This document shows positions 41,153 to 53,338 of a stretch of DNA of 64,000 bases, in pieces. A model generated the notes under the pieces. The model did no database searches and was not told the origin of the DNA. It saw nothing but the letters and a program-made list of their open reading frames with translations. Origin of the DNA: Mucilaginibacter gossypiicola (GTDB taxonomy: Bacteria; Bacteroidota; Bacteroidia; Sphingobacteriales; Sphingobacteriaceae). A program made the position numbers and the translations under genes. The stretch lies in contig NZ_FOCL01000006.1 of assembly GCF_900110105.1 (NCBI RefSeq), forward strand, positions 186,001 through 250,000, given 5' to 3'. How positions within the stretch are numbered: position 1 is the stretch's first letter; every line of letters begins with the position of its first letter.

Positions 41153-42030
41153 TTGCAATAGTTATTTATACCGTTGTCAAAGCTCACTTTTTGCTGATAA
41201 CCCATGCTCAGCAGCTGGCTGTTATCGGCCTGCCAGTACAAGGGATCGCCGACGCGGTTGGTGCCTGTGAACGATAATGCACCGGCAAAGCCGATATACG
41301 TTAAAAATGTTTCGGCTGCTGTTGCTATAGTAATCGTATTATTATTGGCAATATTTGTAATACTAAATCCTGGTTTATTCGCACCGATAAACAGGCTCAT
41401 GGCCTTTACAATATCAGTAACATGAATAAACTCCCTCGTTTCGGCACCAGTACCAAACAACGTGATATTGTCCTGGCATTGCGATTTTTTGTAAAGGTCC
41501 CAAAACAGTTGTTTTTTTAAACCTTCCCCATACGCCGAGAACACGCGAAGTATATGAACGCTTAATCCAAAATGATCATGATACAAACGGCAAAGTTCCT
41601 CGGCCTGTTTTTTATGAATACCGTAAGGGGAAAGGGGGGCAAGCGTATGAGTTTCTTTAATTGGTTGTACTTGCGGATTGCCATAAACTGCCGCGCTCGA
41701 CATTTGAATGAGTCTGCAATTACTGTTGCTCTCCTTTATAGCATTAAGGATACTTACCAGGTGATGAACATTTAGCAGATAGTCGCGCTCTGGGTTATTG
41801 AATGATTCTGGCACAGATGCTGCCCCGGCGCAGTTGATACACCAGTTAAACCGATGATCGCTGAATACTTTTTTAAAATCGGCATTGGTAGCATCAATCA
41901 AAAAGTAGTTAGGATCGTCATATTCTACCATTACATCGGCACCATAAACTTCATGACCTGGCTGGCTTTTAAAGTAGCTATAGCAAGCAGAACCAATAAA
42001 TCCTTTAGAGCCTATGACAAGTATTTTCAT
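41131..42030 (-). CDS. NAD-dependent epimerase/dehydratase (extended SDR)
   Basis: Nucleotide-sugar epimerase, dehydratase or reductase of the extended short-chain dehydrogenase family (299 residues). The NAD-binding loop is [11 protein letters not shown]. The catalytic serine lies in [10 protein letters not shown], and the YxxxK pair is in [12 protein letters not shown]. It probably makes or interconverts a nucleotide sugar used by the neighbouring transferases. The substrate is not clear; it does not show the RmlB or GalE diagnostic regions strongly. It overlaps the acyltransferase gene upstream by four bases (ATGA). Confidence 0.87.
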
Positions 42031-42653
42031 TGCTGAGGTAGTGTTTTGATAAATTGTGCCGGATTACCGGCAACCATAGTAAACGGTTCAACATCTTTAG
42101 TAACTACTGCTCCGGCTGCAACAATAGCACCTTTACCAATGGTGACGCCTTTTAAAATTACAGCGTTAAGGCTGATCCAGGCATAATCGTCAATGATGAT
42201 TGGGGCAGTAAGTACGTTGCCTTTATCGGCCCAATGCCCGTTGCGTAAAAGGTCCATCCATCTATCTGCTCTTTCAATGGCTTCAAGTTCGTGGGCGTTG
42301 GTATCCATGATATTTACATTGTGCGATATCTGCACAAAATTGCCGATGGTTATACTTTCGCCCGACCAGATCCTGCTATGATCGCCAATGTAGCAGTTTT
42401 CGCCAATTGTAATTTTGCCGCCGTATTTAAATATGTTAAGCATTCCGCGGATATGTGTGCCTTTGCCTACTACTATCCTTGATTTATCGAGCGAATTTGA
42501 TACTACCGCCTCCGGGTAAAAGGTAGCGCCAAGGTCGGTAATGCTTAATTGGATATTGCGTTTGCTTTGTTTTTCCTGAAGCAGGTGAATTAAATGAACA
42601 AGGTTGATCTTTTCAAAAAAAGCAAGCAGTATTCTTTTTACTAACTGTTTCAT
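42027..42653 (-). CDS. Hexapeptide-repeat acyltransferase (left-handed beta-helix)
   Basis: A 208-residue O- or N-acyltransferase with a left-handed beta-helix. Repeats run from about residue 45 through [50 protein letters not shown] and [23 protein letters not shown]. The catalytic histidine is probably the one in DTNAHE. It presumably acetylates a sugar of the repeat unit in the cytoplasm. It starts with an ATG that overlaps the upstream stop by one base (TAATG) and is coupled to the epimerase gene. Confidence 0.88.
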
Positions 42654-44596: not shown

Positions 44597-45154
44597 CTAA
44601 TTAACCGATTTGTCCGGGAGCATTATATCCAATAACTTTTTTGACGACGAAGGATCGAGGGTAAATTTGTTTATCAATTCCTGGTTGGAGGATTTAATTT
44701 CCTCGTCGAGTTTAGTTTGATTTGCCCTGATTGCCTTTATTAAAGCGGTAAGTTCGGCGGTGGTCCGGCAATAAGCAATTGAGTTCGAAAGCTCATTTTC
44801 CCATGTGCTATCAACATTGTAAAGGATGGTTTTGAGGCCATGCCTGATCCCCTCCAGCCCCGAAAACCCGGTAAATTGGGCAATGGTAAAATTTATAAAA
44901 TATCCATTTTTTACTTCATCAGTTAAGTCATGTAAAGGAATTGAAGTTTCAGTAAAGGAGATGTTTGAAGAAACCCCCAATTCATGGGCAAGGTTAAGTG
45001 TGTTTTGATAAACCTGCCGGCTATAAATTGCACCTATAAAAAGTATCTGAACATCATTAATCCCTTCATTTTTTAGTGTGTGAAGCACTTCAATAAGGTT
45101 GGGGAACGAGTTTTTGTCTTCCGCAATCCGTGATACCACATTTAAGTTAATCAT
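44597..45154 (-). CDS. Split GT4 glycosyltransferase, C-terminal (donor) half
   Basis: 185 residues that correspond to the C-terminal nucleotide-sugar domain of a GT4 enzyme. [23 protein letters not shown] matches the start of that domain, and FTGFSGLEGIRHGLKTILYN corresponds to the catalytic region with one glutamate kept. Its ATG lies inside the stop region of the N-terminal half, sharing the eight bases ATGATTAA. In this frame a TAA stands directly before the ATG, so it cannot be read as a simple extension of the upstream frame. The two halves add up to about 360 residues, a normal GT4 size. Confidence 0.78.
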   Translation of the reverse strand: MINLNVVSRIAEDKNSFPNLIEVLHTLKNEGINDVQILFIGAIYSRQVYQNTLNLAHELGVSSNISFTETSIPLHDLTDEVKNGYFINFTIAQFTGFSGLEGIRHGLKTILYNVDSTWENELSNSIAYCRTTAELTALIKAIRANQTKLDEEIKSSNQELINKFTLDPSSSKKLLDIMLPDKSVN

Positions 45155-45677
45155 TTAAAAAAAGCTTAAATAGTACCTTTTTGCATTTTACAGGAATGCT
45201 TTTTTCGTAATTGTTGAATTCTGCTTCCTGGTACGGATTGATGTATACTATTGTGTCATTGGCATTATCAAAATAGCTTTCAGGGAAATTATAGGCTCCC
45301 TGAATAGCGTTGGTGATGTGCCAAAAAAAACGGTGATTGTGAATGATGGTATCCTTTGCCCGATAAATATTGTATAAGCCTATAACATGAATACTTTCAT
45401 ATATGGCGCTGGCAAAGAATTTCAATTTGAACGACCAGTATAATGACCTGCACATTCTTAAAGGCGACCGGAAGTTTTTGATCCCCGTAAGCCTGGTCCT
45501 CACAACTTTAATTTTTTTTTGCTTAAATATATCGTCGTAGTATTCCTTTTGGTAGTTTTCCAAAATTAATATGGTAGGTTCGATGTTGTTTTTTTGTGCA
45601 AACGTGGCCAGTTCGTACATAAGCTTCTCAGCACCGCCAAGAACCAGCTGACCATTTACAATTAAAATTTTACGCAT
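45147..45677 (-). CDS. Split GT4 glycosyltransferase, N-terminal (acceptor) half
   Basis: 176 residues from the ATG at 45677 ([23 protein letters not shown]), matching the acceptor domain of GT4 enzymes, with the glycine-rich loop GGAEKL. It ends at the interdomain boundary (KLFLND) where the C-terminal half begins in another frame. The frame is open to 45710, but that part lies in the aminotransferase gene. The start overlaps the aminotransferase stop by eight bases (ATGCGTAA). It either works together with the downstream half as a two-chain enzyme or represents a GT4 gene broken at the linker. Confidence 0.78.
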
Positions 45678-46773
45678 AAAACTTTTTGATGGTTTTACAT
45701 ACGTATTCAATTTCCTCGTCGCTCATTCCGGGGTTCAGCGGTAAGCTCAGGCAGGTTTCTGCAAGCTCTTCCGCTATCGGGAAATCGCCTTTTTGATAAC
45801 CGAGGTGGCTATATGCTTTTTGTAGATGGGCTGGAACAGGGTAGTGGATCCCGGTACCTATCCCGTGGTTATTTAAATGTTTTTCCAATGCATCGCGTTT
45901 GCTGCTGCGGACAACGTATAAATGGTACACGTGCATTGCTCCCGATGCGATGGCTGGCAATATAAGCTCGCTGATACCGTCAAGCTGCTCATCATAAGCT
46001 TCGGCTATTTTTCTTCTCTCATCGATCCATCCATTCAGATATTTCAACTTTACCGAAAGAAAAGCGGCCTGTAACTCATCAAGCCTTGAGTTTAGGCCGA
46101 TAACCTCGTTATAGTATTTTTTTTCCGAACCATAATTGCGCAGCAGGTTTACTTTGTGAGCCAAGTTAGCATCGCTGGTGGTTAATGCCCCTGCATCGCC
46201 ATAGGCACCCAGGTTTTTTGTTGGATAAAAGCTGGTGGCATTGATGTGGCCAAAACTGCCGGTGAGTTGTTCGTTATAAGCGCAGCCCTGTGCCTGGGCA
46301 TTATCTTCAATAACAAAAAGATTGTGTTTGCCTGCAATTTGCATAATGGCATCCATTTGGCAAGCCTGCCCATACAAATGCACCGGCATTATCGCCTTTG
46401 TTTTAGGGGTGATAGCCGCTTCGATCAAATGCGGATCTAAATTATAAGTAAGCCTATCCGGTTCAACCGGTACTATGGTTGCCTTTACCTGCGATATGGC
46501 CAGCCAGGTAGCTATAAATGTATTTGAGGGTACAATAACTTCATCACCTTCGCCTATATCAAGTGCCTTCAGGGCTAAATGCAATGCGTCAAGGCCATTG
46601 CCTACGCCAATGCAATGTTGAACCTTATTATAGGTAGCATAAGCTTTTTCAAAATCGCTGACTTCCTTGCCAAGTATGTACCATTTATTCTGAAAAACGC
46701 GCTCAAATGCCGCACGGATTTCTTCCTCAACTAAGTTATTCTGGCCGGTAAAAGATAAAAAGGGGATGTTCAT
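45670..46773 (-). CDS. DegT/DnrJ/EryC1 family sugar aminotransferase (QdtB/FdtB-like)
   Basis: PLP enzyme that puts an amino group on a 3- or 4-keto nucleotide sugar. The lysine that binds PLP is K186 in [41 protein letters not shown] and EDNAQAQG are family landmarks, and the last two are typical of the QdtB/FdtB branch that makes dTDP-3-amino-3,6-dideoxyhexoses. The two ketoisomerase-like cupin genes in the same operon support that pathway. No rmlA or rmlB gene is in the window, so the dTDP-4-keto-6-deoxyglucose must come from elsewhere. Confidence 0.9.
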
Positions 46774-46817
46774 TGATTCAGCTTTCAGCTTTAGGCATTT
46801 TGCTTTGAGCTTTTATT

Positions 46818-47822
46818 CTATATAAATGTTATGACCGTACCGGCCCATGAGTAACCAACGCCAAAACCGGCCAGCAGCCATTTTGCCTGTGGTTGCACAG
46901 GTTTTTCTTTCATGGCCTCGTATAATGCAATAGGTACTGATGATGATACGGTATTACCTACATTGGCCATGTAGATATAAAAGTTTTCGGGGGCGATGTC
47001 CATCTTTTTACGCAGGTGTTCCAGCATGTATTGGTTGGCCTGATGCAGGATAAATTGCCCGATATCGGCCTTGCTCACCCCGTTTTTTTTAAGGGTATCG
47101 GTTATTAATGCAGGAATTTCTTTTGAGGTAAAAGCAAATATTTCGGGTCCATCCATGTGTAAGTTGCCCGGCGATTGCTCGTTGCCGTAGCCGTCTTGTA
47201 CGGTATCAGCGCTTTTTTCGGGATAACGGATAGCACCCTGCTTTACCATCAGGTTCCCGGCACCTTTGCCATCGGTACCCAGTTCAAAGTTACCTATGGC
47301 TGCAAAGCCTTCGGTACTAACAAGAGTAGCTGCCGCAGCATCGCCAAAGATGGTGAGGTTGCCTTTATCTTTAGGGTGTATAAATTTTGAATATGTTTCG
47401 GATGTAAGCAGCAGGATATTGGTGGCTATGCCGGCCGCAATCAAGCCTTTGGCTAATGCAAGTCCGTAAACGTAGCCAGAACAGCCCAGATTAAAATCAA
47501 GTGCGCCAGCTTTAACCGGGATACCGAGTTTATCCTGGATAATACAGGCCGTTGTAGGCAAAAAATAATCCGGACTTTGGGTACAGTACAATATAAAATT
47601 AATTTCTGCCGGATTAACGTTATGCTCTTCAAAAAGCTGCTGAGCGGCTGCTATCGCCATATCTGACGCAAATTGATCACCGGCGGCTATATGGCGGGTA
47701 TCGATACCTATTTTGTTAGCTATTTTTTCAACCCCCCATTCTGGAAACAGGGCCGACAATTCAGCATTGGTTAGCTTATTCTCCGGCAAATAGTACGAAA
47801 CAGCTTTGATAAAGGCCTGCAT
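46818..47822 (-). CDS. 3-oxoacyl-ACP synthase III (KAS III family), copy 1
   Basis: Condensing enzyme of the FabH family, joining an acyl starter with malonyl-ACP. The catalytic triad is complete: C114 in NLGCSGYVYG, H260 in LHQANQYM and N290 in NVGNTVSSS. At 334 residues the length is normal. It lies in a cassette with a carrier protein, a ketoreductase and a second KAS III gene, directly after the ketoreductase (stop and start adjacent). The setting implies a dedicated short acyl chain for sugar modification in place of bulk fatty acid synthesis. Starter preference is unknown. Confidence 0.9.
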   Translation of the reverse strand: MQAFIKAVSYYLPENKLTNAELSALFPEWGVEKIANKIGIDTRHIAAGDQFASDMAIAAAQQLFEEHNVNPAEINFILYCTQSPDYFLPTTACIIQDKLGIPVKAGALDFNLGCSGYVYGLALAKGLIAAGIATNILLLTSETYSKFIHPKDKGNLTIFGDAAAATLVSTEGFAAIGNFELGTDGKGAGNLMVKQGAIRYPEKSADTVQDGYGNEQSPGNLHMDGPEIFAFTSKEIPALITDTLKKNGVSKADIGQFILHQANQYMLEHLRKKMDIAPENFYIYMANVGNTVSSSVPIALYEAMKEKPVQPQAKWLLAGFGVGYSWAGTVITFI

Positions 47823-48563
47823 CTATCGTATTATAAAACCGCCGTCAACTACCAAAGTACTCCCGGTTACCCATTTGCTGGCATCAGATAATAAGTAAAC
47901 CGCCGCATTGGCAACGTCAGTAGGTTCGCCATACCCCAAAGGATATTTTTCTTCATCTTTTTTCATCTGCTCCTCGGTAAAGGTGGGGTCATTAATGAGC
48001 TCGGTCCTTATCATTCCCGGCGAAATATTGTTAACCCTGATTTTTTGCATGGAGAGTTCTATGGCCAATACCTTTTGAAGAGCATTTATCGCCCCTTTTG
48101 AAGCACTGTACATAGAGTTACCTGGTGAGCCAATATAGTTGCCGGCGATGGAGGATATAAATATTACCGACCCTTTTTTATTTAACTTTTTAGTTTTTAA
48201 TAGCTTATTAACTAAAAAGGCTGGCGAGAAAAAGTTTGTTTGGAAAATGGCATCCATATCGTTCCTGTTTACAAACTTAAATGGTAATGCCTTTATAATG
48301 CCTGCAGACAGTACTATGCCATCTAAATTTGGCATTAACTGAGTCAGGTTCTCCAGTTCTTCTTCTATCGCCAAATCGGCAATATATTTACCACCGGGTA
48401 CTTCAAGCAGATCAAAAGTTTCTGATAGCCTTTGTTCATTCCTACCTGTGATATAGGTTTCTGCACCCATTCCTGAAGCGCTTATAGCAATTTGCCTTCC
48501 TATACCAGATGAGGCACCTGTAACTAAGATTTTTTTACCTTTTAAAGAGAACGGATTATCCAT
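47823..48563 (-). CDS. Short-chain dehydrogenase, 3-oxoacyl-ACP reductase type
   Basis: FabG-like reductase of 246 residues. TGASSGIG (16-23) binds NADP(H), the catalytic residues are S137/S138, Y152 and K156 (MYSASKGA), and ISPGMIRTELI is the usual post-catalytic motif. In the cassette it would reduce the 3-oxoacyl-ACP made by the KAS III enzymes to 3-hydroxyacyl-ACP. It shares eight bases (ATGGATAA) with the stop of KAS III copy 2 upstream. No dehydratase or enoyl reductase gene is near, so the chain likely keeps its hydroxyl. Confidence 0.88.
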   Translation of the reverse strand: MDNPFSLKGKKILVTGASSGIGRQIAISASGMGAETYITGRNEQRLSETFDLLEVPGGKYIADLAIEEELENLTQLMPNLDGIVLSAGIIKALPFKFVNRNDMDAIFQTNFFSPAFLVNKLLKTKKLNKKGSVIFISSIAGNYIGSPGNSMYSASKGAINALQKVLAIELSMQKIRVNNISPGMIRTELINDPTFTEEQMKKDEEKYPLGYGEPTDVANAAVYLLSDASKWVTGSTLVVDGGFIIR

Positions 48564-49614
48564 AATATATTAAATCGGGGATTACCAGGTTAGTAGTAGT
48601 GCACTGCATTGTTGCCCATGATAAGCCCACTCCAAAGCCGCAGGCTATTATGCTGGCTTGCCCATTTTTTAACTCACCGGCACTTTCGGTAACCATGGTT
48701 AGGGGGATACTGGCACTACTGGTATTGCCAAAGTTTTTTAACGAATAGGGTACTTTATTTTCGGGCAGTTGTAATTTTTTCCTGATACGTTCATTCATCA
48801 TCAGGTTAGCCTGGTGAAAATAGAAATGATCAACAGAATCTTTATCTATCGCGAATTTGTTTAACAGCTGATTTACAGTTTCCGGAGCTTTTGAAATACC
48901 AAAAGAAAATACGTCCATACCATCTAACCACAACTCGATATTGTTACGGCTAATGCCCTGGTCAATCACGTGTTCCTGTAATGATGATTCAGAAAAGCGG
49001 TTACGGTGCCCTCCGTCGGGTATCATAATTGCTTTATAACCGCTTCCATCACTTGAAAGATGAAACTTCATTCCTTCATCGCCTTCGCAATATTCCAGCG
49101 CAGTTACGGTACCGGCGTCACCAAACAAAGGGTATGTACTTTTATCCTGTTTTGAGCAGGATACCGAGGATACATCGCCAACGCAAAGCAGGGCTTTCTT
49201 TATCATACCGCTTTGCATATAACTGGCCAACGTGCTTAATCCATAAATATAGCCGGAGCAGCCCAGGGAGATATCAATTGTAAAACAATTTTGCGATAGG
49301 CCTAACCTGTGCTGTAATGATGGCGAGGTTGCGGGTACAAGATAATCGGGCGATTGGGTTACCATGATCAGCCCTTCAATTTCATCTTTGTTCCAGTTTA
49401 ACTCTTCCAGCAGTTTTTCGGCTGCTGCAAAACACATATCAGATGTACAGATGCCCGGTGTTGCCACATGCCGGCGTTCAACGCCGGTGGTTTTAATTAA
49501 TTTGTCGATATCCATACTCGGGACATCGGCAATTTCCAGGTTTTCTTCAACGTACGCGGGGACGCACGCTGATATGCCTTTTATGGCAACATTTTTTATG
49601 CTTAAAAATGCCAT
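48556..49614 (-). CDS. 3-oxoacyl-ACP synthase III (KAS III family), copy 2
   Basis: A 352-residue FabH-family condensing enzyme with a complete triad: C119 in SLGCSGYIYG, H267 in FHQANLMM and N297 in FGNTSSAS. It differs from copy 1 over most of its length but keeps the same motif order, so the two are paralogues with distinct roles, possibly different starters or successive extensions. Its start follows the carrier-protein stop without a gap. The protein has an N-terminal extension of about ten residues relative to copy 1. Confidence 0.9.
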   Translation of the reverse strand: MAFLSIKNVAIKGISACVPAYVEENLEIADVPSMDIDKLIKTTGVERRHVATPGICTSDMCFAAAEKLLEELNWNKDEIEGLIMVTQSPDYLVPATSPSLQHRLGLSQNCFTIDISLGCSGYIYGLSTLASYMQSGMIKKALLCVGDVSSVSCSKQDKSTYPLFGDAGTVTALEYCEGDEGMKFHLSSDGSGYKAIMIPDGGHRNRFSESSLQEHVIDQGISRNNIELWLDGMDVFSFGISKAPETVNQLLNKFAIDKDSVDHFYFHQANLMMNERIRKKLQLPENKVPYSLKNFGNTSSASIPLTMVTESAGELKNGQASIIACGFGVGLSWATMQCTTTNLVIPDLIYYG

Positions 49615-49848
49615 TTAGTTTGATTTAGCCAATACGATATCGTAGATCTGTTGTATTGTTTTAGAGTTTCTGATATCATCGCCGGTTAACCTCACTGCAT
49701 AGCTATCATCAACCATTGCAATAACTGAAAGGGCTGTCATCGAGCTCCATTCGTCATTCTCTTTAAATAAAGTTTCGGGGGTAAAAGCACTCGTATCTAA
49801 ATCGTCAAACTGATCAGCAAATTCACTTACAAATTTTTCAATATTCAT
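49615..49848 (-). CDS. Acyl carrier protein
   Basis: A 77-residue acidic four-helix carrier protein that would hold the growing acyl chain on phosphopantetheine. The attachment serine is S36 in NDEWSSMTALSVIAM; the usual Asp-Ser-Leu is replaced by Ser-Ser-Met, which is a distinct form. The second helix after it (MVDDSYAVRLTGDDI) fits the family recognition helix. It sits between the GNAT gene and KAS III copy 2 and is dedicated to this cassette. It is not the housekeeping AcpP, which usually has DSLD. Confidence 0.88.
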   Translation of the reverse strand: MNIEKFVSEFADQFDDLDTSAFTPETLFKENDEWSSMTALSVIAMVDDSYAVRLTGDDIRNSKTIQQIYDIVLAKSN

Positions 49849-49863
49849 AGCTTGTGTGTTAGG

Positions 49864-50385
49864 TTATATTATACTTGTTAAAAATTCATTTTTTCGTTTA
49901 GCGCCATCTTCATCTATTGTAAAATAATAGTTGAGCTCATCTTCGCCGGTTACCCGTGCAAACATTTTATGAAACCGCAGGGCTTTTTTGTTGTCTTTCC
50001 TTACATCAAACACGCACCTTTTATTTTTCAATTCGGTGGCTGCAAATTCTGAAAGAAACAGATCTGATTTGATGCTGATAAACTCGTCGCATCCGGGTTT
50101 TACGATCCAGCTGCCGTTGGTGTATGTATCATCTTTAATATCATACACCCTTACAACGCCAACGGGCTCATTATCCTCATTGGCAAATAAAAAGTAAAAT
50201 TCCTCCCGTTTTTCTTCCCGCTTTTTGTATTCCCTTATCCAATCAATTTGTTTTTGCAAATCATTGTCGGTAGGTGACAGGTACCGGGCGTGGACTTTGT
50301 CGGTTCGCAGGCTTAAAATAAATTCGGCATCGCCTTCCTCAACCAATCTAAATATTAAGCCAAATTTATGAAACGGGAACTGCAT
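49864..50385 (-). CDS. GNAT family acyltransferase
   Basis: N-acyltransferase of the GNAT superfamily, 173 residues. FRLVEEGDAEFILSLRTD is the N-terminal strand and helix, PVGVVRVYDI the central strand, and CVFDVRKDNKKALRFHKMF the C-terminal signature where acyl donor and product are held. It most probably transfers the acyl group from the neighbouring carrier protein onto the 3-amino group of the sugar made by the aminotransferase. Homologues in this position can use acetyl-CoA instead; the cassette favours acyl-ACP. It follows the ketoisomerase gene with adjacent stop and start. Confidence 0.85.
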   Translation of the reverse strand: MQFPFHKFGLIFRLVEEGDAEFILSLRTDKVHARYLSPTDNDLQKQIDWIREYKKREEKREEFYFLFANEDNEPVGVVRVYDIKDDTYTNGSWIVKPGCDEFISIKSDLFLSEFAATELKNKRCVFDVRKDNKKALRFHKMFARVTGEDELNYYFTIDEDGAKRKNEFLTSII

Positions 50386-50808
50386 TTATAATGATTTGTA
50401 TTCTTTGAATTGATTGTATTCTCTTAAATAGTCTTCTTCTGTGTACAACATGGAAGCCAGTACAAGACAAATGGCCCCCGACGAAAAATTTGAAATATCG
50501 CGCCAAATACCGGGCTTAATATGCAGCCCCATGTACGGACGGTTTAGCTGTACTGTTTTTTTATTAATTCCATCGTCAATGGTGATGTCAAAACTGCCGC
50601 TGGCCGCAACTATAAATTGCTCCAGTTGCATATGCCCATGCGCCGCACGTGATTCGCCCCCTGGTATATCATATAAATAATATACCCGTTTAACAGCAAA
50701 CGGAATATGGATATTGTTTTCGACAGGAGTAATATTACCCGCACGGTTATGGATGCGGCGCAGATGAATGATACTGCAATCAAAAACGGTCGACGATTTA
50801 CCTTCCAT
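50386..50808 (-). CDS. dTDP-4-keto-6-deoxyglucose 3,4-ketoisomerase-like cupin (WxcM/FdtA/QdtA), canonical
   Basis: A 140-residue cupin of the FdtA/QdtA sugar 3,4-ketoisomerase family, which shifts the keto group of dTDP-4-keto-6-deoxyhexose from C4 to C3 ahead of the aminotransferase. The catalytic histidine pair is intact as H57 and H59 in SRAAHGHMQ. YDIPGGES, AASGSFDITIDDG and LHIKPGIWRDI are the other family landmarks, and the tail LREYNQF is typical. It overlaps the second, variant copy by 11 bases. Whether it makes the gluco or galacto product cannot be read here. Confidence 0.88.
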   Translation of the reverse strand: MEGKSSTVFDCSIIHLRRIHNRAGNITPVENNIHIPFAVKRVYYLYDIPGGESRAAHGHMQLEQFIVAASGSFDITIDDGINKKTVQLNRPYMGLHIKPGIWRDISNFSSGAICLVLASMLYTEEDYLREYNQFKEYKSL

Positions 50809-51202
50809 ACTTGCTGCTTATAAATTGATCAAAGTCCCTGATGTATTCTTTTTCATCATATTTATCATCGGCCAGGATCAGCGCAAGTGAATTGGTAGAG
50901 AAGTTCTCAATTTCGCGCCACATCATTTTGGGTACATATAGCCCGTAGTATGAACGGTTAAGACTAAACCGCATTTCCTTTTCGCCGTCGTGCAGTATCA
51001 CATCAAAGCTGCCGCTTATGGCTACAATGAATTCCTGAAGGTTTAAATATGCATGACCACCGCGCCGTTCGCCGCCGGGCACGTCATAAATCCAGTAAGT
51101 GCGCTCAATTTTAAACGGAATATGATTGTTTTCTTCGATGAAGGAAAGGTTCCCACGGTCGTCTAAAAATTTGGGCAATTGTATGATGTGCGGGCCTTCC
51201 AT
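50798..51202 (-). CDS. Sugar 3,4-ketoisomerase-like cupin, variant copy
   Basis: A 134-residue paralogue of the 50386-50808 protein with the same layout (DRGNLSFIEENNHIPF, YDVPGGERRG, AISGSFDVILHDG, LYVPKMMWREI). The second catalytic histidine is replaced: H50-A-Y52 stands where the canonical copy has H57-G-H59. It may therefore be inactive, act as a partner subunit, or catalyse another isomerisation. It lies just downstream of wzt and upstream of the canonical copy, with an 11-base overlap. The family assignment is firm; function is not. Confidence 0.82.
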   Translation of the reverse strand: MEGPHIIQLPKFLDDRGNLSFIEENNHIPFKIERTYWIYDVPGGERRGGHAYLNLQEFIVAISGSFDVILHDGEKEMRFSLNRSYYGLYVPKMMWREIENFSTNSLALILADDKYDEKEYIRDFDQFISSKYGR

Positions 51203-51208
51203 ATATAA

Positions 51209-52474
51209 TTATGACTGGTAACTAACAGTAAAATCGAGGTTAGGATGAATTACACCCGGAGCTAAAGAGCTGTTACTACCCTTGCTCTCATTTTCCACTT
51301 CAAAACCGATAAAATCATCGGCTCCAAATAACAGGTAACGCTGGTTTTCGCCAAAGATAAGCTTGAACGAATAATTGCCGGCGTTTAACAGGTTAGGCGG
51401 AATAGTACACTTAATAGTATAAAACCCGGTTTTTGAATTGTTGTTTGTTGAGATAAGCACACCATTATGAAATACAGGGATTTCATCGCTGTTTCTTAAC
51501 TCAAATGTAGCGTCGAGATTAATGCCTGCCTTTTGATTAAAAAACACCATCTCAAAGCAAACACCTGTCGACATGGAAATACTTTCGCCTGTAAGTGGCT
51601 GGATAATAAACTTAAGCACCCTGATGTTTTCGTTACCGGGGGCGGAGCTTAAATCATCATGATGTTCAAAAGTTGAGCGGGTATTATTATTGGTTTGATA
51701 AAAGCTAACGGCTTCAAGCTGTTTGTTTTCATATATCAGCTGTCCGTTTGCAAGTACGATGCCGCGTGTACACAATGTTTTAACAGCAGCCATATTGTGG
51801 CTTACAAATAACACCGTACGCCCTTCGTTCCTGCTTACCTGCCCCATTTTACCGAGGCATTTTTTCTGAAACTCGGCATCGCCAACGGCCAAAACCTCAT
51901 CTACTATCAGTATTTCGCTTTCAAGGTGGGCGGCCACTGCAAAGGCCAGGCGCACATACATTCCTGACGAGTATCGTTTAACAGGTGTATCAATATATCT
52001 TTCGACACCCGAAAAACTCACAATTTCATCAAATTTTCGTTTGATCTCGGCCTTACGCATCCCGAGGATAGCGCCGTTGAGGTAAATGTTTTCCCGGCCG
52101 CTTAACTCAGGATGAAAACCAGTGCCTACTTCAAGTAAGCTGGCTATCCTGCCCCGTAGTTTTACTGAACCCGTAGTAGGGGAGGTAACGCGACTTAATA
52201 CTTTGAGCAATGTACTTTTACCCGCGCCATTGCGGCCTATAATACCAACGGCATCGCCTTGCTCAACTTCAAAATTAATATCATTTAAGCTCCATACCAC
52301 ATCGCTTTCGCCTTTGGTGGTACGGTCATTTATTTCGCCTATTTTTAAAAAAGGATCTTCCTTACCACGCATGCGCGCCCAAAAACGTTCCAGGTCGCGC
52401 GAGATGGTGCCTGTGCCAAAATCGCCTAACTGGTAGGCTTTTGACAGGTTTTCAACTTTTATTGCTTTGCTCAT
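51209..52474 (-). CDS. wzt: Polysaccharide ABC transporter ATP-binding protein with C-terminal glycan-binding domain
   Basis: ATPase of an ABC-2 exporter that moves lipid-linked polysaccharide across the inner membrane. Walker A is GRNGAGKST (80-88), the signature is YSSGMYVRLA (168-177), Walker B ILIVDEVLAVGD (188-199), and the H-loop is SHNMAA. After about residue 265 a beta-rich domain follows (to 421), like the Wzt carbohydrate-binding domain that reads the chain end in O-antigen export. That domain suggests recognition of a modified, perhaps acylated, non-reducing end. It follows wzm with adjacent stop and start. Confidence 0.92.
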   Translation of the reverse strand: MSKAIKVENLSKAYQLGDFGTGTISRDLERFWARMRGKEDPFLKIGEINDRTTKGESDVVWSLNDINFEVEQGDAVGIIGRNGAGKSTLLKVLSRVTSPTTGSVKLRGRIASLLEVGTGFHPELSGRENIYLNGAILGMRKAEIKRKFDEIVSFSGVERYIDTPVKRYSSGMYVRLAFAVAAHLESEILIVDEVLAVGDAEFQKKCLGKMGQVSRNEGRTVLFVSHNMAAVKTLCTRGIVLANGQLIYENKQLEAVSFYQTNNNTRSTFEHHDDLSSAPGNENIRVLKFIIQPLTGESISMSTGVCFEMVFFNQKAGINLDATFELRNSDEIPVFHNGVLISTNNNSKTGFYTIKCTIPPNLLNAGNYSFKLIFGENQRYLLFGADDFIGFEVENESKGSNSSLAPGVIHPNLDFTVSYQS

Positions 52475-53338
52475 TTATACGGTATCAACAAAAGTTTTTT
52501 CAACCTTATTAAATATCACTATCCCAACCAAGAGTATTAAAATAGTACTTATGATGCTGTAGGTAAGTAATTCCCAGCTAAAGCTGCCTTTGCCCAATAA
52601 GCCGTACCTAAACGTTTCAATTACTGCTGTAATAGGGTTAAACTTAATAAGCCAGCTGTATTTCGGGTATTTGGTTTGCGCTACCGATAGTGGGTATATT
52701 ACTGTTGTAGCATACATTAAAAGCGGTACACCAAAGGCTACTACAAAAGCTATATCCCGGTATTTGGTAGTAACTGCCGATATGATCATGCCCAGCCCCA
52801 GGCCCAAAGATGCAATCATGACAATAAGCAGTGGTAAAAGCAGGGCTGCTGCATTGGGCACAATATGTTCCCCCTTTAAAACAAATATAATGTACAGGAT
52901 AATGAAAAGCAGGAACTGAACCGCAAAACGGATCAGGTTTGATAGCACGATACTAAGCGGCATAATAAGCCTCGGAAAATATACCTTGCCCAATATTCCG
53001 GCATTGTCTTTAAAAACAGTTGAGGTTTTGTTGAGGCAATCAGCAAAATAGTTCCAGATGATAGTGCCGGCCAGATAAAAGAGGGGTTTGGGCAAGCCAT
53101 CAACCGGGATACCCGCAAGATTGCCAAATATCAGGGTGTAAAACAGGATAGTAATAACCGGCTGAACAAAAAACCATACCGGCCCTAAAATAGTCTGTTT
53201 ATAAAACGAAATGAAATCACGCCTAACCAGTAGCACAAGCAGATCGCGATAATGCCATATATCTTTAAACTTAAGGTCGAGCAGGCTGCTTTTGGCATTT
53301 ATTTCAATGTCCCACTTTTCCGGGTGCAAATCACTCAT
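52475..53338 (-). CDS. wzm: Polysaccharide ABC-2 transporter permease
   Basis: Membrane component of the exporter, 287 residues with six hydrophobic segments (about residues 55-75, 84-100, 125-150, 163-185, 200-215 and 257-280). LLVRRDFISFYKQTILGPVWFFVQP at the start is the usual Wzm/TagG opening helix. It forms the channel with Wzt. The start overlaps the GT4 stop upstream by eight bases (ATGAGTGA). The presence of this exporter is notable because the same locus has a Wzy-like protein. Confidence 0.93.
   Translation of the reverse strand: MSDLHPEKWDIEINAKSSLLDLKFKDIWHYRDLLVLLVRRDFISFYKQTILGPVWFFVQPVITILFYTLIFGNLAGIPVDGLPKPLFYLAGTIIWNYFADCLNKTSTVFKDNAGILGKVYFPRLIMPLSIVLSNLIRFAVQFLLFIILYIIFVLKGEHIVPNAAALLLPLLIVMIASLGLGLGMIISAVTTKYRDIAFVVAFGVPLLMYATTVIYPLSVAQTKYPKYSWLIKFNPITAVIETFRYGLLGKGSFSWELLTYSIISTILILLVGIVIFNKVEKTFVDTV

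Follow-up and report, generated by a model that had tools for sequence, protein, structure and literature searches.

The 64,000-nucleotide stretch of the Mucilaginibacter gossypiicola genome analysed here (the window) contains, between positions 45670 and 51202, eight tightly spaced genes, all of them ORFs of the minus strand: two FdtA-type ketoisomerases (FdtAa and FdtAb), a GNAT acyltransferase, an acyl carrier protein (ACP), two KAS III enzymes (KASA and KASB), one FabG-type reductase (SDR) and an FdtB/QdtB-type aminotransferase (Table 1). ORFs and family assignments bear out this inventory as given in a preliminary description of the sequence, including the remark that a dehydratase and an enoyl reductase are missing: every minus-strand ORF of the block has been assigned, and neither enzyme is among them. 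Adjacent genes overlap (FdtAa/FdtAb by 11 bp, KASB/SDR by 8 bp), abut at 0 bp (FdtAb/GNAT, ACP/KASB and SDR/KASA) or are separated by 15 bp (GNAT/ACP) and 44 bp (KASA/FdtB). The shared genes occur in the same order in 12 further genomes of the genus, which argues that the arrangement is not due to chance. Among the papers listed by literature searches, in which subscription journals are covered only in small part, none deals with this gene block according to its title or abstract.

Table 1. Genes of the block and its immediate neighbours, in order of transcription (positions in the window).
Feature	Position	Strand	Evidence
Wzt and Wzm ABC exporter	51209..53338	-	directly upstream of the block, same locus
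FdtAa, FdtA-type 3,4-ketoisomerase paralogue (first in the block)	50798..51202	-	PF05523 1e-50; best PDB matches 5tpu, 2pa7
FdtAb, FdtA/QdtA-type dTDP-4-keto-6-deoxyglucose 3,4-ketoisomerase	50386..50808	-	PF05523 4.1e-49; 5tpu 2.3e-33, 2pa7 4.8e-32; HxH intact
GNAT, putative FdhC-like sugar N-acyltransferase	49864..50385	-	PF13302 2.7e-9; FdhC 5kta 2.5e-27
ACP, dedicated, predicted phosphopantetheine site Ser36	49615..49848	-	NCBIfam acyl carrier protein 4e-4 (weak)
KASB, KAS III	48556..49614	-	PF08541 (KAS III C-terminal domain) 7.5e-22; triad C119/H267/N297
SDR, FabG-type 3-ketoacyl-ACP reductase	47823..48563	-	PF13561/PF00106, SDR 2.9e-47; aligns with E. coli FabG
KASA, KAS III	46818..47822	-	PF08541 3.2e-28; triad C114/H260/N290
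FdtB/QdtB-type PLP aminotransferase, predicted to aminate C-3	45670..46773	-	PF01041 (DegT_DnrJ_EryC1) 1.2e-120; best PDB match QdtB 3frk 4.2e-127
Two successive half-size glycosyltransferase-like genes	44597..45710	-	directly downstream; label from reading of the sequence

The block sits in a surface-polysaccharide locus. A Wzt match lies immediately upstream of FdtAa in all 12 other loci of the genus that carry the GNAT. The two downstream genes, for which Pfam gave no match at 0.001, might have been one frameshifted glycosyltransferase (45147-45710 and 44597-45154); this was dismissed, since the two-gene arrangement is kept in the same 12 loci and in L139.

The outer genes of the block belong to families used for 3-amino sugars. 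The FdtA/FdtB/FdtC and QdtA/QdtB/QdtC pathways lead to dTDP-Fuc3NAc and dTDP-Qui3NAc, and the block shares their ketoisomerase and aminotransferase families, with RmlA and RmlB found elsewhere in the genome at scores above curated cut-offs. It differs in having a GNAT and a private acyl line in place of the acetyltransferase step, and in carrying two ketoisomerases. The aminotransferase, a DegT family member, matches QdtB with 427 bits, its SFYPTKNLG aligning with SFYPAKNLG, presumably the PLP-lysine segment. The two cupins described beforehand as ketoisomerase-like indeed both belong to the FdtA family; however, they are not equivalent. FdtAb keeps both histidines of the HxH motif, whereas FdtAa reads HAY for the HAH of solved FdtA, the first histidine being retained and the second replaced by tyrosine. 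This difference is conserved, with H-x-Y in 19 of 19 FdtAa orthologues, each directly before FdtAb, and HxH in 19 of 19 FdtAb orthologues. Campylobacter jejuni likewise has two ketoisomerases, WlaRA (5tpv) and WlaRB (5tpu), which share one sugar transaminase and yield Fuc3N and Qui3N. Here, by comparison, the pair is adjacent and unequal, HxY beside HxH; 5tpu itself has HAH.

The GNAT has a single PDB sequence match at E <= 0.001, FdhC (5kta; 2.5e-27), which spans the GNAT domain (residues 11-161) at moderate similarity (99 bits). FdhC (5kta, 5ktc, 5ktd) is a GNAT N-acyltransferase that places 3-hydroxybutyrate on dTDP-Fuc3N, i.e. it acts on a dTDP-3-amino-3,6-dideoxyhexose. At E <= 1e-10 the GNAT is found in 13 of 149 genomes of the genus, the window included, and in all 13 it lies inside the block at the same locus. 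Among 395 genomes of the same class, the only match besides the window is G160, from outside the genus (34% identity), whose locus shows an aminotransferase together with a weak match for KAS, and no ACP or FdtA match.

The four genes between GNAT and aminotransferase share the KAS III triad, the FabG-type reductase and the ACP serine with type II fatty acid synthesis (FabH, FabG, AcpP), but a dehydratase and an enoyl reductase are absent and the output is presumably a sugar amide. The ACP has no Pfam match at 0.001; Ser36, as first described, aligns with AcpP Ser37, and serine occupies this column in 106 of 106 rows, with E. coli and the window counted, as well as a few duplicated loci (L055 and L079 among them). 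Alignment to E. coli FabH (C112/H244/N274) likewise upholds the earlier reading that both C-H-N triads are complete. All 51 KASA-lineage rows conserve the three columns; in the KASB lineage C is present in 112, H in 111 and N in 111 of 112 rows, the remaining rows being gapped; at the genus locus they are intact in 13/13 KASA and 10/10 KASB. KASA and KASB form separate tree lineages (supports 0.986 and 0.992), the KASB tallies (locus tally and alignment columns) being based on a 112-leaf node (0.688) that takes in one leaf more than the 111-leaf node with support 0.992. Pocket residues, compared by alignment at the FabH positions, reveal no clear size difference between the two. The SDR carries GASSGIG and YSASK motifs. 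Its best Pfam model, PF13561, is named for enoyl reductases, and the FabI motif is Y-x6-K; we rule out this function based on the YxxxK motif, the alignment with FabG and the lack of a dehydratase in the block. The HMG-CoA synthase triad is C-H-E, and branching by an enzyme of this type is disfavoured by C-H-N. A 3-hydroxy-3-methylbutyrate is described as the acyl group of Qui4N in a Shewanella polysaccharide (PMC3210612).

The closest precedent is the O-polysaccharide of Flavobacterium psychrophilum, for which a 2019 study (PMC6519341; sequence accession MK214917) proposes that the R1 genes wfpC-wfpG encode an ACP, two 3-ketoacyl-ACP synthases, a ketoreductase and an N-acyltransferase, reports a 3,5-dihydroxyhexanoyl amide by NMR, and describes strains that vary in their R-group genes. 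The block holds the same inventory in a surface-polysaccharide locus, i.e. a private ACP, two KAS, one ketoreductase and one N-acyltransferase, the likeness being one of gene content. The target sugar and the transferase differ: in F. psychrophilum they are UDP-Qui2NAc4N, from PglE/PglF, and a PglD-like enzyme (PMC6519341), whereas here FdtA/FdtB-type genes and a GNAT take their place. The KASA-ACP-KASB-SDR order was considered as the wfp order with an adjoining PglD, and no such locus was found; a divergent GNAT is present there instead.

Relatives of KASB occur in 69 of the 395 same-class genomes examined. In a tally of 92 loci, which leaves out the window, L036 and L037, the two lineages are found together in 44; in another 44, of which 17 have short flanks, KASB stands without a KASA-lineage partner, and scores point to the same in three further single-KAS loci. 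KAS ORFs below 250 aa and SDR matches below 60 bits were not counted, and L055 (the block as carried by M. gilvus, overlapping the coordinates of L036) and L079 (taken as a duplicate of L039) were dropped here and from the neighbour counts below. Hence, a general rule that KASB always needs KASA is ruled out, and KASB is not tied to a second step; it is the genus locus that suggests the order KASA then KASB. At least three KAS are present in L061, L064, L105 and L107, which a simple KAS count does not explain unless two cassettes or longer chains are assumed. Of the 60 cassettes whose two flanks each measure 4 kb or more, 53 have a gene for an N-acyltransferase no further than 4 kb away, as do 20 of 32 with shorter flanks. 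As a control, among 30 cassettes with 8 kb or more on either side, such a gene is found at 0-4 kb in 25 and at 4-8 kb in 2, the GNAT model behind these counts having been built from matches in the same loci.

Within the genus, related loci differ in the slot between FdtAb and FdtB. The 13 GNAT loci carry KASB-SDR-KASA (10), SDR-KASA (2) or KASA only (1), so that KASA is present in every genus version with this GNAT (12/12 other loci). KASB is absent from the locus in G026, G468 and G453, and a search there for a second copy found none. In the tree, the partner of each of the two SDR-KASA loci is a locus with two KAS (local supports 0.994 and 1.0). In L173 the module has neither KASB nor reductase; a reductase must therefore act in trans, or the acyl group differs. 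In G048 a hexapeptide acyltransferase occupies the place of the cassette. Since shorter versions stand at the same place in related strains, acyl length may depend on how many condensing enzymes are encoded, and we predict a C6 dihydroxyacyl amide for two KAS and a C4 hydroxyacyl amide for one.

Based on these comparisons, we consider it probable that the block is a polysaccharide-locus cassette for an N-hydroxyacyl 3-amino-3,6-dideoxyhexose. The individual reactions and their order, the chain length and the stereochemistry of the sugar are what we infer from the gene content, as follows. Housekeeping RmlA and RmlB would supply dTDP-4-keto-6-deoxyglucose, the FdtA pair would shift the keto group to C-3, and the FdtB/QdtB-type enzyme would aminate this position, Qui3N being a slightly better candidate for the product than Fuc3N. 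Meanwhile, KASA would condense acetyl-CoA with malonyl-ACP to acetoacetyl on the private ACP, which the SDR would reduce to 3-hydroxybutyryl-ACP. KASB may then add a second malonyl unit (C4 to C6), and renewed reduction by the SDR would give 3,5-dihydroxyhexanoyl-ACP, the hydroxyls likely being retained as the block has no dehydratase or enoyl reductase. The FdhC-like GNAT would finally acylate the 3-amino group from the ACP, and Wzm/Wzt would export the polymer into which the sugar is built. The (di)hydroxyacyl amide on Fuc3N or Qui3N anticipated in the preliminary description is thus the best inference from the FdhC and QdtB matches, RmlA/RmlB, the wfp precedent and the swap series. That description left the two KAS III to serve either two chain steps or two starters; we favour chain steps, because KASB is missing in place in three genomes that retain the Fdt, GNAT, ACP and KASA set.

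The same cassette could make a 3-hydroxybutyryl (C4) or another single-condensation group, the second KAS III being redundant, using a different starter or transferring acyl groups. We judge this rather unlikely, even though the GNAT matches FdhC, a 3-hydroxybutyryl transferase, single-KAS cassettes exist with either lineage, and triads do not reveal by themselves what is condensed. Against it, 10 of the 13 GNAT loci have KASB, each time with C-H-N, and two KAS with one reductase are the inventory assigned to the C6 dihydroxy group of F. psychrophilum (PMC6519341). It is improbable, in turn, that both KAS III are subunits of a single heteromeric condensing enzyme, in which case their number would not count chain steps. 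PqsB and PqsC are such a pair, PqsB lacking a full triad, and the two lineages do co-occur in 44/92 loci and 10/13 GNAT loci; unlike PqsB, however, both proteins here keep C-H-N, and three genomes have KASA but no KASB at this locus.

An equally slim chance is that the KAS, ACP and SDR genes serve another polymer or lipid while the sugar is N-acetylated, for example by the hexapeptide transferase at 42027-42653 of the window. The hexapeptide enzyme found in G048 where the cassette would be is compatible with this. Yet the GNAT, ACP, KAS and SDR genes are enclosed by the FdtA and FdtB genes, with neighbours overlapping or no more than 44 bp apart, and it is the FdtAb-FdtB slot in which related loci differ.

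In conclusion, a private ACP/KAS/reductase line that serves a glycan amide has, as a general idea, been on record since 2019. New are its predicted coupling to a 3-amino-3,6-dideoxyhexose via a GNAT, the series of modules swapped in place at a single locus, and the conserved pair of FdtA proteins, the first of which is missing one histidine of the motif; the unequal pair represents a separate question of enzymology. Tentatively, we regard it as possible that the slot between ketoisomerase pair and aminotransferase is an interchangeable acyl ruler, taking a one-gene N-acetyl, a one-KAS hydroxybutyryl or a two-KAS dihydroxyhexanoyl module, with the presence of KASB setting acyl length, a 3-(3,5-dihydroxyhexanamido)-3,6-dideoxyhexose as product and HxY and HxH subunits forming a two-component ketoisomerase. 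If true, the acyl length of glycans in these bacteria would follow from a gene count readable from genomes, and a fatty-acid-like line would be joined to dTDP-3-amino sugars through a GNAT. Given how widespread KASB relatives are in the class, and that most fetched cassettes adjoin an N-acyltransferase gene, many unread surface glycans may bear hydroxyacyl amides.

The tight block of eight genes claimed in the preliminary description is borne out by its ORFs and by families assigned with Pfam and NCBIfam. Neighbouring ORFs overlap by at most 11 bp or stand at most 44 bp apart, transcribed in the order FdtAa and FdtAb (FdtA-type ketoisomerase cupins), GNAT (sugar N-acyltransferase), ACP, KASB (KAS III), SDR (reductase), KASA (KAS III) and FdtB (aminotransferase). 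The ACP is the weakest family call (NCBIfam 4e-4, without a Pfam match); its serine falls on AcpP Ser37, a column occupied by Ser in all 106 aligned rows. The triads of both KAS match the columns of E. coli FabH C112, H244 and N274, with C-H-N in 13/13 KASA and 10/10 KASB at the Mucilaginibacter locus, and SDR carries a FabG-type YxxxK motif. Alignment to FabH and AcpP thus upholds the complete triads and the ACP serine described earlier, and, as also described, there is no dehydratase or enoyl-reductase gene among the genes of the block.

Coordinates of the features discussed (window positions unless a comparison locus is named)
Feature	Position	Strand
Eight-gene block	45670-51202	minus
FdtAa	50798-51202	minus
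FdtAb	50386-50808	minus
KASB	48556-49614	minus
SDR	47823-48563	minus
KASA	46818-47822	minus
Wzt	51209-52474	
Half-size glycosyltransferase-like gene	45147-45710	
Half-size glycosyltransferase-like gene	44597-45154	
ACP-KAS-SDR, GT2, divergent GNAT cassette	L082:11780-13413	
ACP-KAS-SDR, GT2, divergent GNAT cassette	L102:11908-13487	
Rieske-type oxygenase match	L063:11053-12153	

Directly upstream, Wzm and Wzt mark an export locus (Pfam/NCBIfam scan), beyond which ORFs were read by eye as Wza, Wzc, a NusG-like protein, AsnB and a glycosyltransferase; glycosyltransferases, two of them scanned, also lie downstream. The matched ABC domain of Wzt covers only 63-194 of 421 residues, and the C-terminal part, directly adjoining the acyl-sugar block, may recognise some polymer feature. 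Two half-size genes, read by eye as encoding one glycosyltransferase-like protein and neither giving a match in a Pfam scan, recur as a split pair in all 12 other GNAT loci and in L139, a locus with paired FdtA genes.

The sole PDB match of GNAT at E up to 0.001 is FdhC (5kta, 2.5e-27), which transfers 3-hydroxybutyrate to dTDP-Fuc3N. The simplest account of the gene content is that two condensations and two reductions would occur on the private ACP, and that the acyl group would then be transferred as an amide onto a 3-amino sugar. KASA is proposed to act before KASB, the one ground for this order being that KASA is the KAS retained in three reduced loci of the genus; elsewhere, KASB-lineage enzymes can stand without a KASA-lineage partner.

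Regarding the sugar, the aminotransferase best matches QdtB (3frk, 427 bits), and both cupins match the solved 3,4-ketoisomerases 5tpu and 2pa7. RmlB (467.8 bits) and RmlA (468.1 bits) exceed curated cut-offs elsewhere in the genome, and dTDP-4-keto-6-deoxyglucose should therefore be on hand. Where 2pa7 (FdtA) has a His at chain index 97, all 19 FdtAa have Arg, as do 16 of 19 FdtAb (Ala in two, Cys in one); five of the six unpaired FdtA homologues examined have His. As Arg at this position presumably marks QdtA (Qui3N) and His FdtA (Fuc3N), Qui3N would be weakly favoured.

FdtAa immediately precedes FdtAb in 19 of 19 loci, the window and a Dysgonamonadaceae contig (L060) included, and throughout these the former carries H-x-Y and the latter H-x-H, the motif also of the six unpaired homologues. 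In the deposited FdtA variants 2pae, 2pak and 2pam, Asn replaces one or both motif histidines, which suggests that these residues matter. That the pair is unequal and yet conserved may reflect a heteromer or, alternatively, a second reaction. The pair occurs both with and without KAS genes, a KAS match being absent from all five paired loci L139-L143.

A GNAT search of the genus (E up to 1e-10, 149 genomes) returned 13 genomes, the window's own counted, all sharing the order Wzt, FdtAa, FdtAb, GNAT, ACP, module, FdtB, half-GT, half-GT, GT2, with GT2 about 1.1 kb further along in L037 and L173. The module between ACP and FdtB is KASB-SDR-KASA in ten (window, G500, G467, G483, G042, G057, G478, G518, G454, G459), G500 being nearly identical to the window (KASB 99% identity), and SDR-KASA in two (G026, G468). 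One genome, G453 (locus L173), holds GNAT, ACP and KASA without KASB, and no SDR match of at least 60 bits lies in 20 kb of its locus; housekeeping FabG might step in there. G048 has a single hexapeptide acyltransferase in the slot that separates FdtAb from FdtB. Its best PDB matches are the N-acetyltransferase 7s43 (186.8 bits) and 4mzu, a WxcM-like protein matched in its N-terminal half (186.4 bits), against 68.5 bits for QdtC.

When six families were joined in one tree, G468 (0.994) and G026 (1.0) each paired with a different two-KAS locus, so at least two events of KASB loss or module replacement took place; support is weak (0.198 to 0.891) for the deeper nodes holding G453 and G048. Whole-genome searches of G468, G453 and G026 gave no second KASB-like enzyme, the best matches being their own KASA (32-34% identity) and next FabH-level enzymes (27-31%), while G048 gave FabH-level enzymes only (28-30%).

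Across loci, the KASA lineage (51 leaves, 0.986) is distinct from the KASB lineage (111 leaves, 0.992) in a tree of 171 sequences, including 7 of a FabH-type outgroup. Among 92 loci, many cut by contig ends and fetched mainly by KASB queries, hence KASB-biased, 44 hold both lineages, 44 KASB only and 4 KASA only. Four loci (L061, L064, L105, L107) each carry three or more KAS III, which a simple count of one KAS per step fails to explain. Searched with an F. johnsoniae query at an E-value limit of 1e-60, 69 of 395 Bacteroidia genomes hold KASB relatives; at 1e-70, KASA relatives occur in 44 of the 398 genomes in the genus to which the F. johnsoniae genome belongs. A GNAT search of the class (395 genomes) gave, besides the window, a single relative outside the genus (G160, 34% identity); its locus has an aminotransferase and a match to KAS that is weak, with neither an ACP nor an FdtA match. 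The short contig L060 reads FdtAa-FdtAb-GNAT-ACP-KASB up to its end.

The principle of a private acyl line for a glycan is already known from Flavobacterium psychrophilum. There, according to a 2019 account, a 3,5-dihydroxyhexanoyl group was observed by NMR; wfpC-G were proposed as its source on Qui2NAc4N, with wfpC and wfpE as ketoacyl-ACP synthases, wfpF as reductase, wfpD as ACP and wfpG as PglD-like transferase, and two strains without R1 genes had other pglD homologues (PMC6519341). As far as the literature surveyed shows, what is new is the FdtA/FdtB coupling through GNAT, the in-place series of module swaps and the unequal ketoisomerase pair.

An N-acyltransferase gene lies within 4 kb in 53 of the 60 cassette loci whose flanks each extend 4 kb or more (31 GNAT, 22 PglD or other hexapeptide type), and in 20/32 with shorter flanks. 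Where both flanks reach 8 kb or more (n=30), it lies at 0-4 kb in 25 and at 4-8 kb in two, the GNAT model being derived from matches in these very loci and thus biased toward the near zone. An FdtB-like match within 9 kb accompanies only 6 of the 31 full-flank GNAT loci, L049 among them. A second kind of cassette, seen in L082, L102 and similar loci, has ACP-KAS-SDR followed by GT2 and a divergent GNAT. Finally, in nine Flavobacterium loci (L063 and, at a comparable spot, L057-L059, L062, L066, L070, L080 and L108), a Rieske-type oxygenase match, one confirmed by Pfam, sits beside KAS genes inside ACP/KAS/SDR/PglD cassettes. This suggests extra hydroxylation of the acyl chain, and further kinds of acyl modification are therefore likely.
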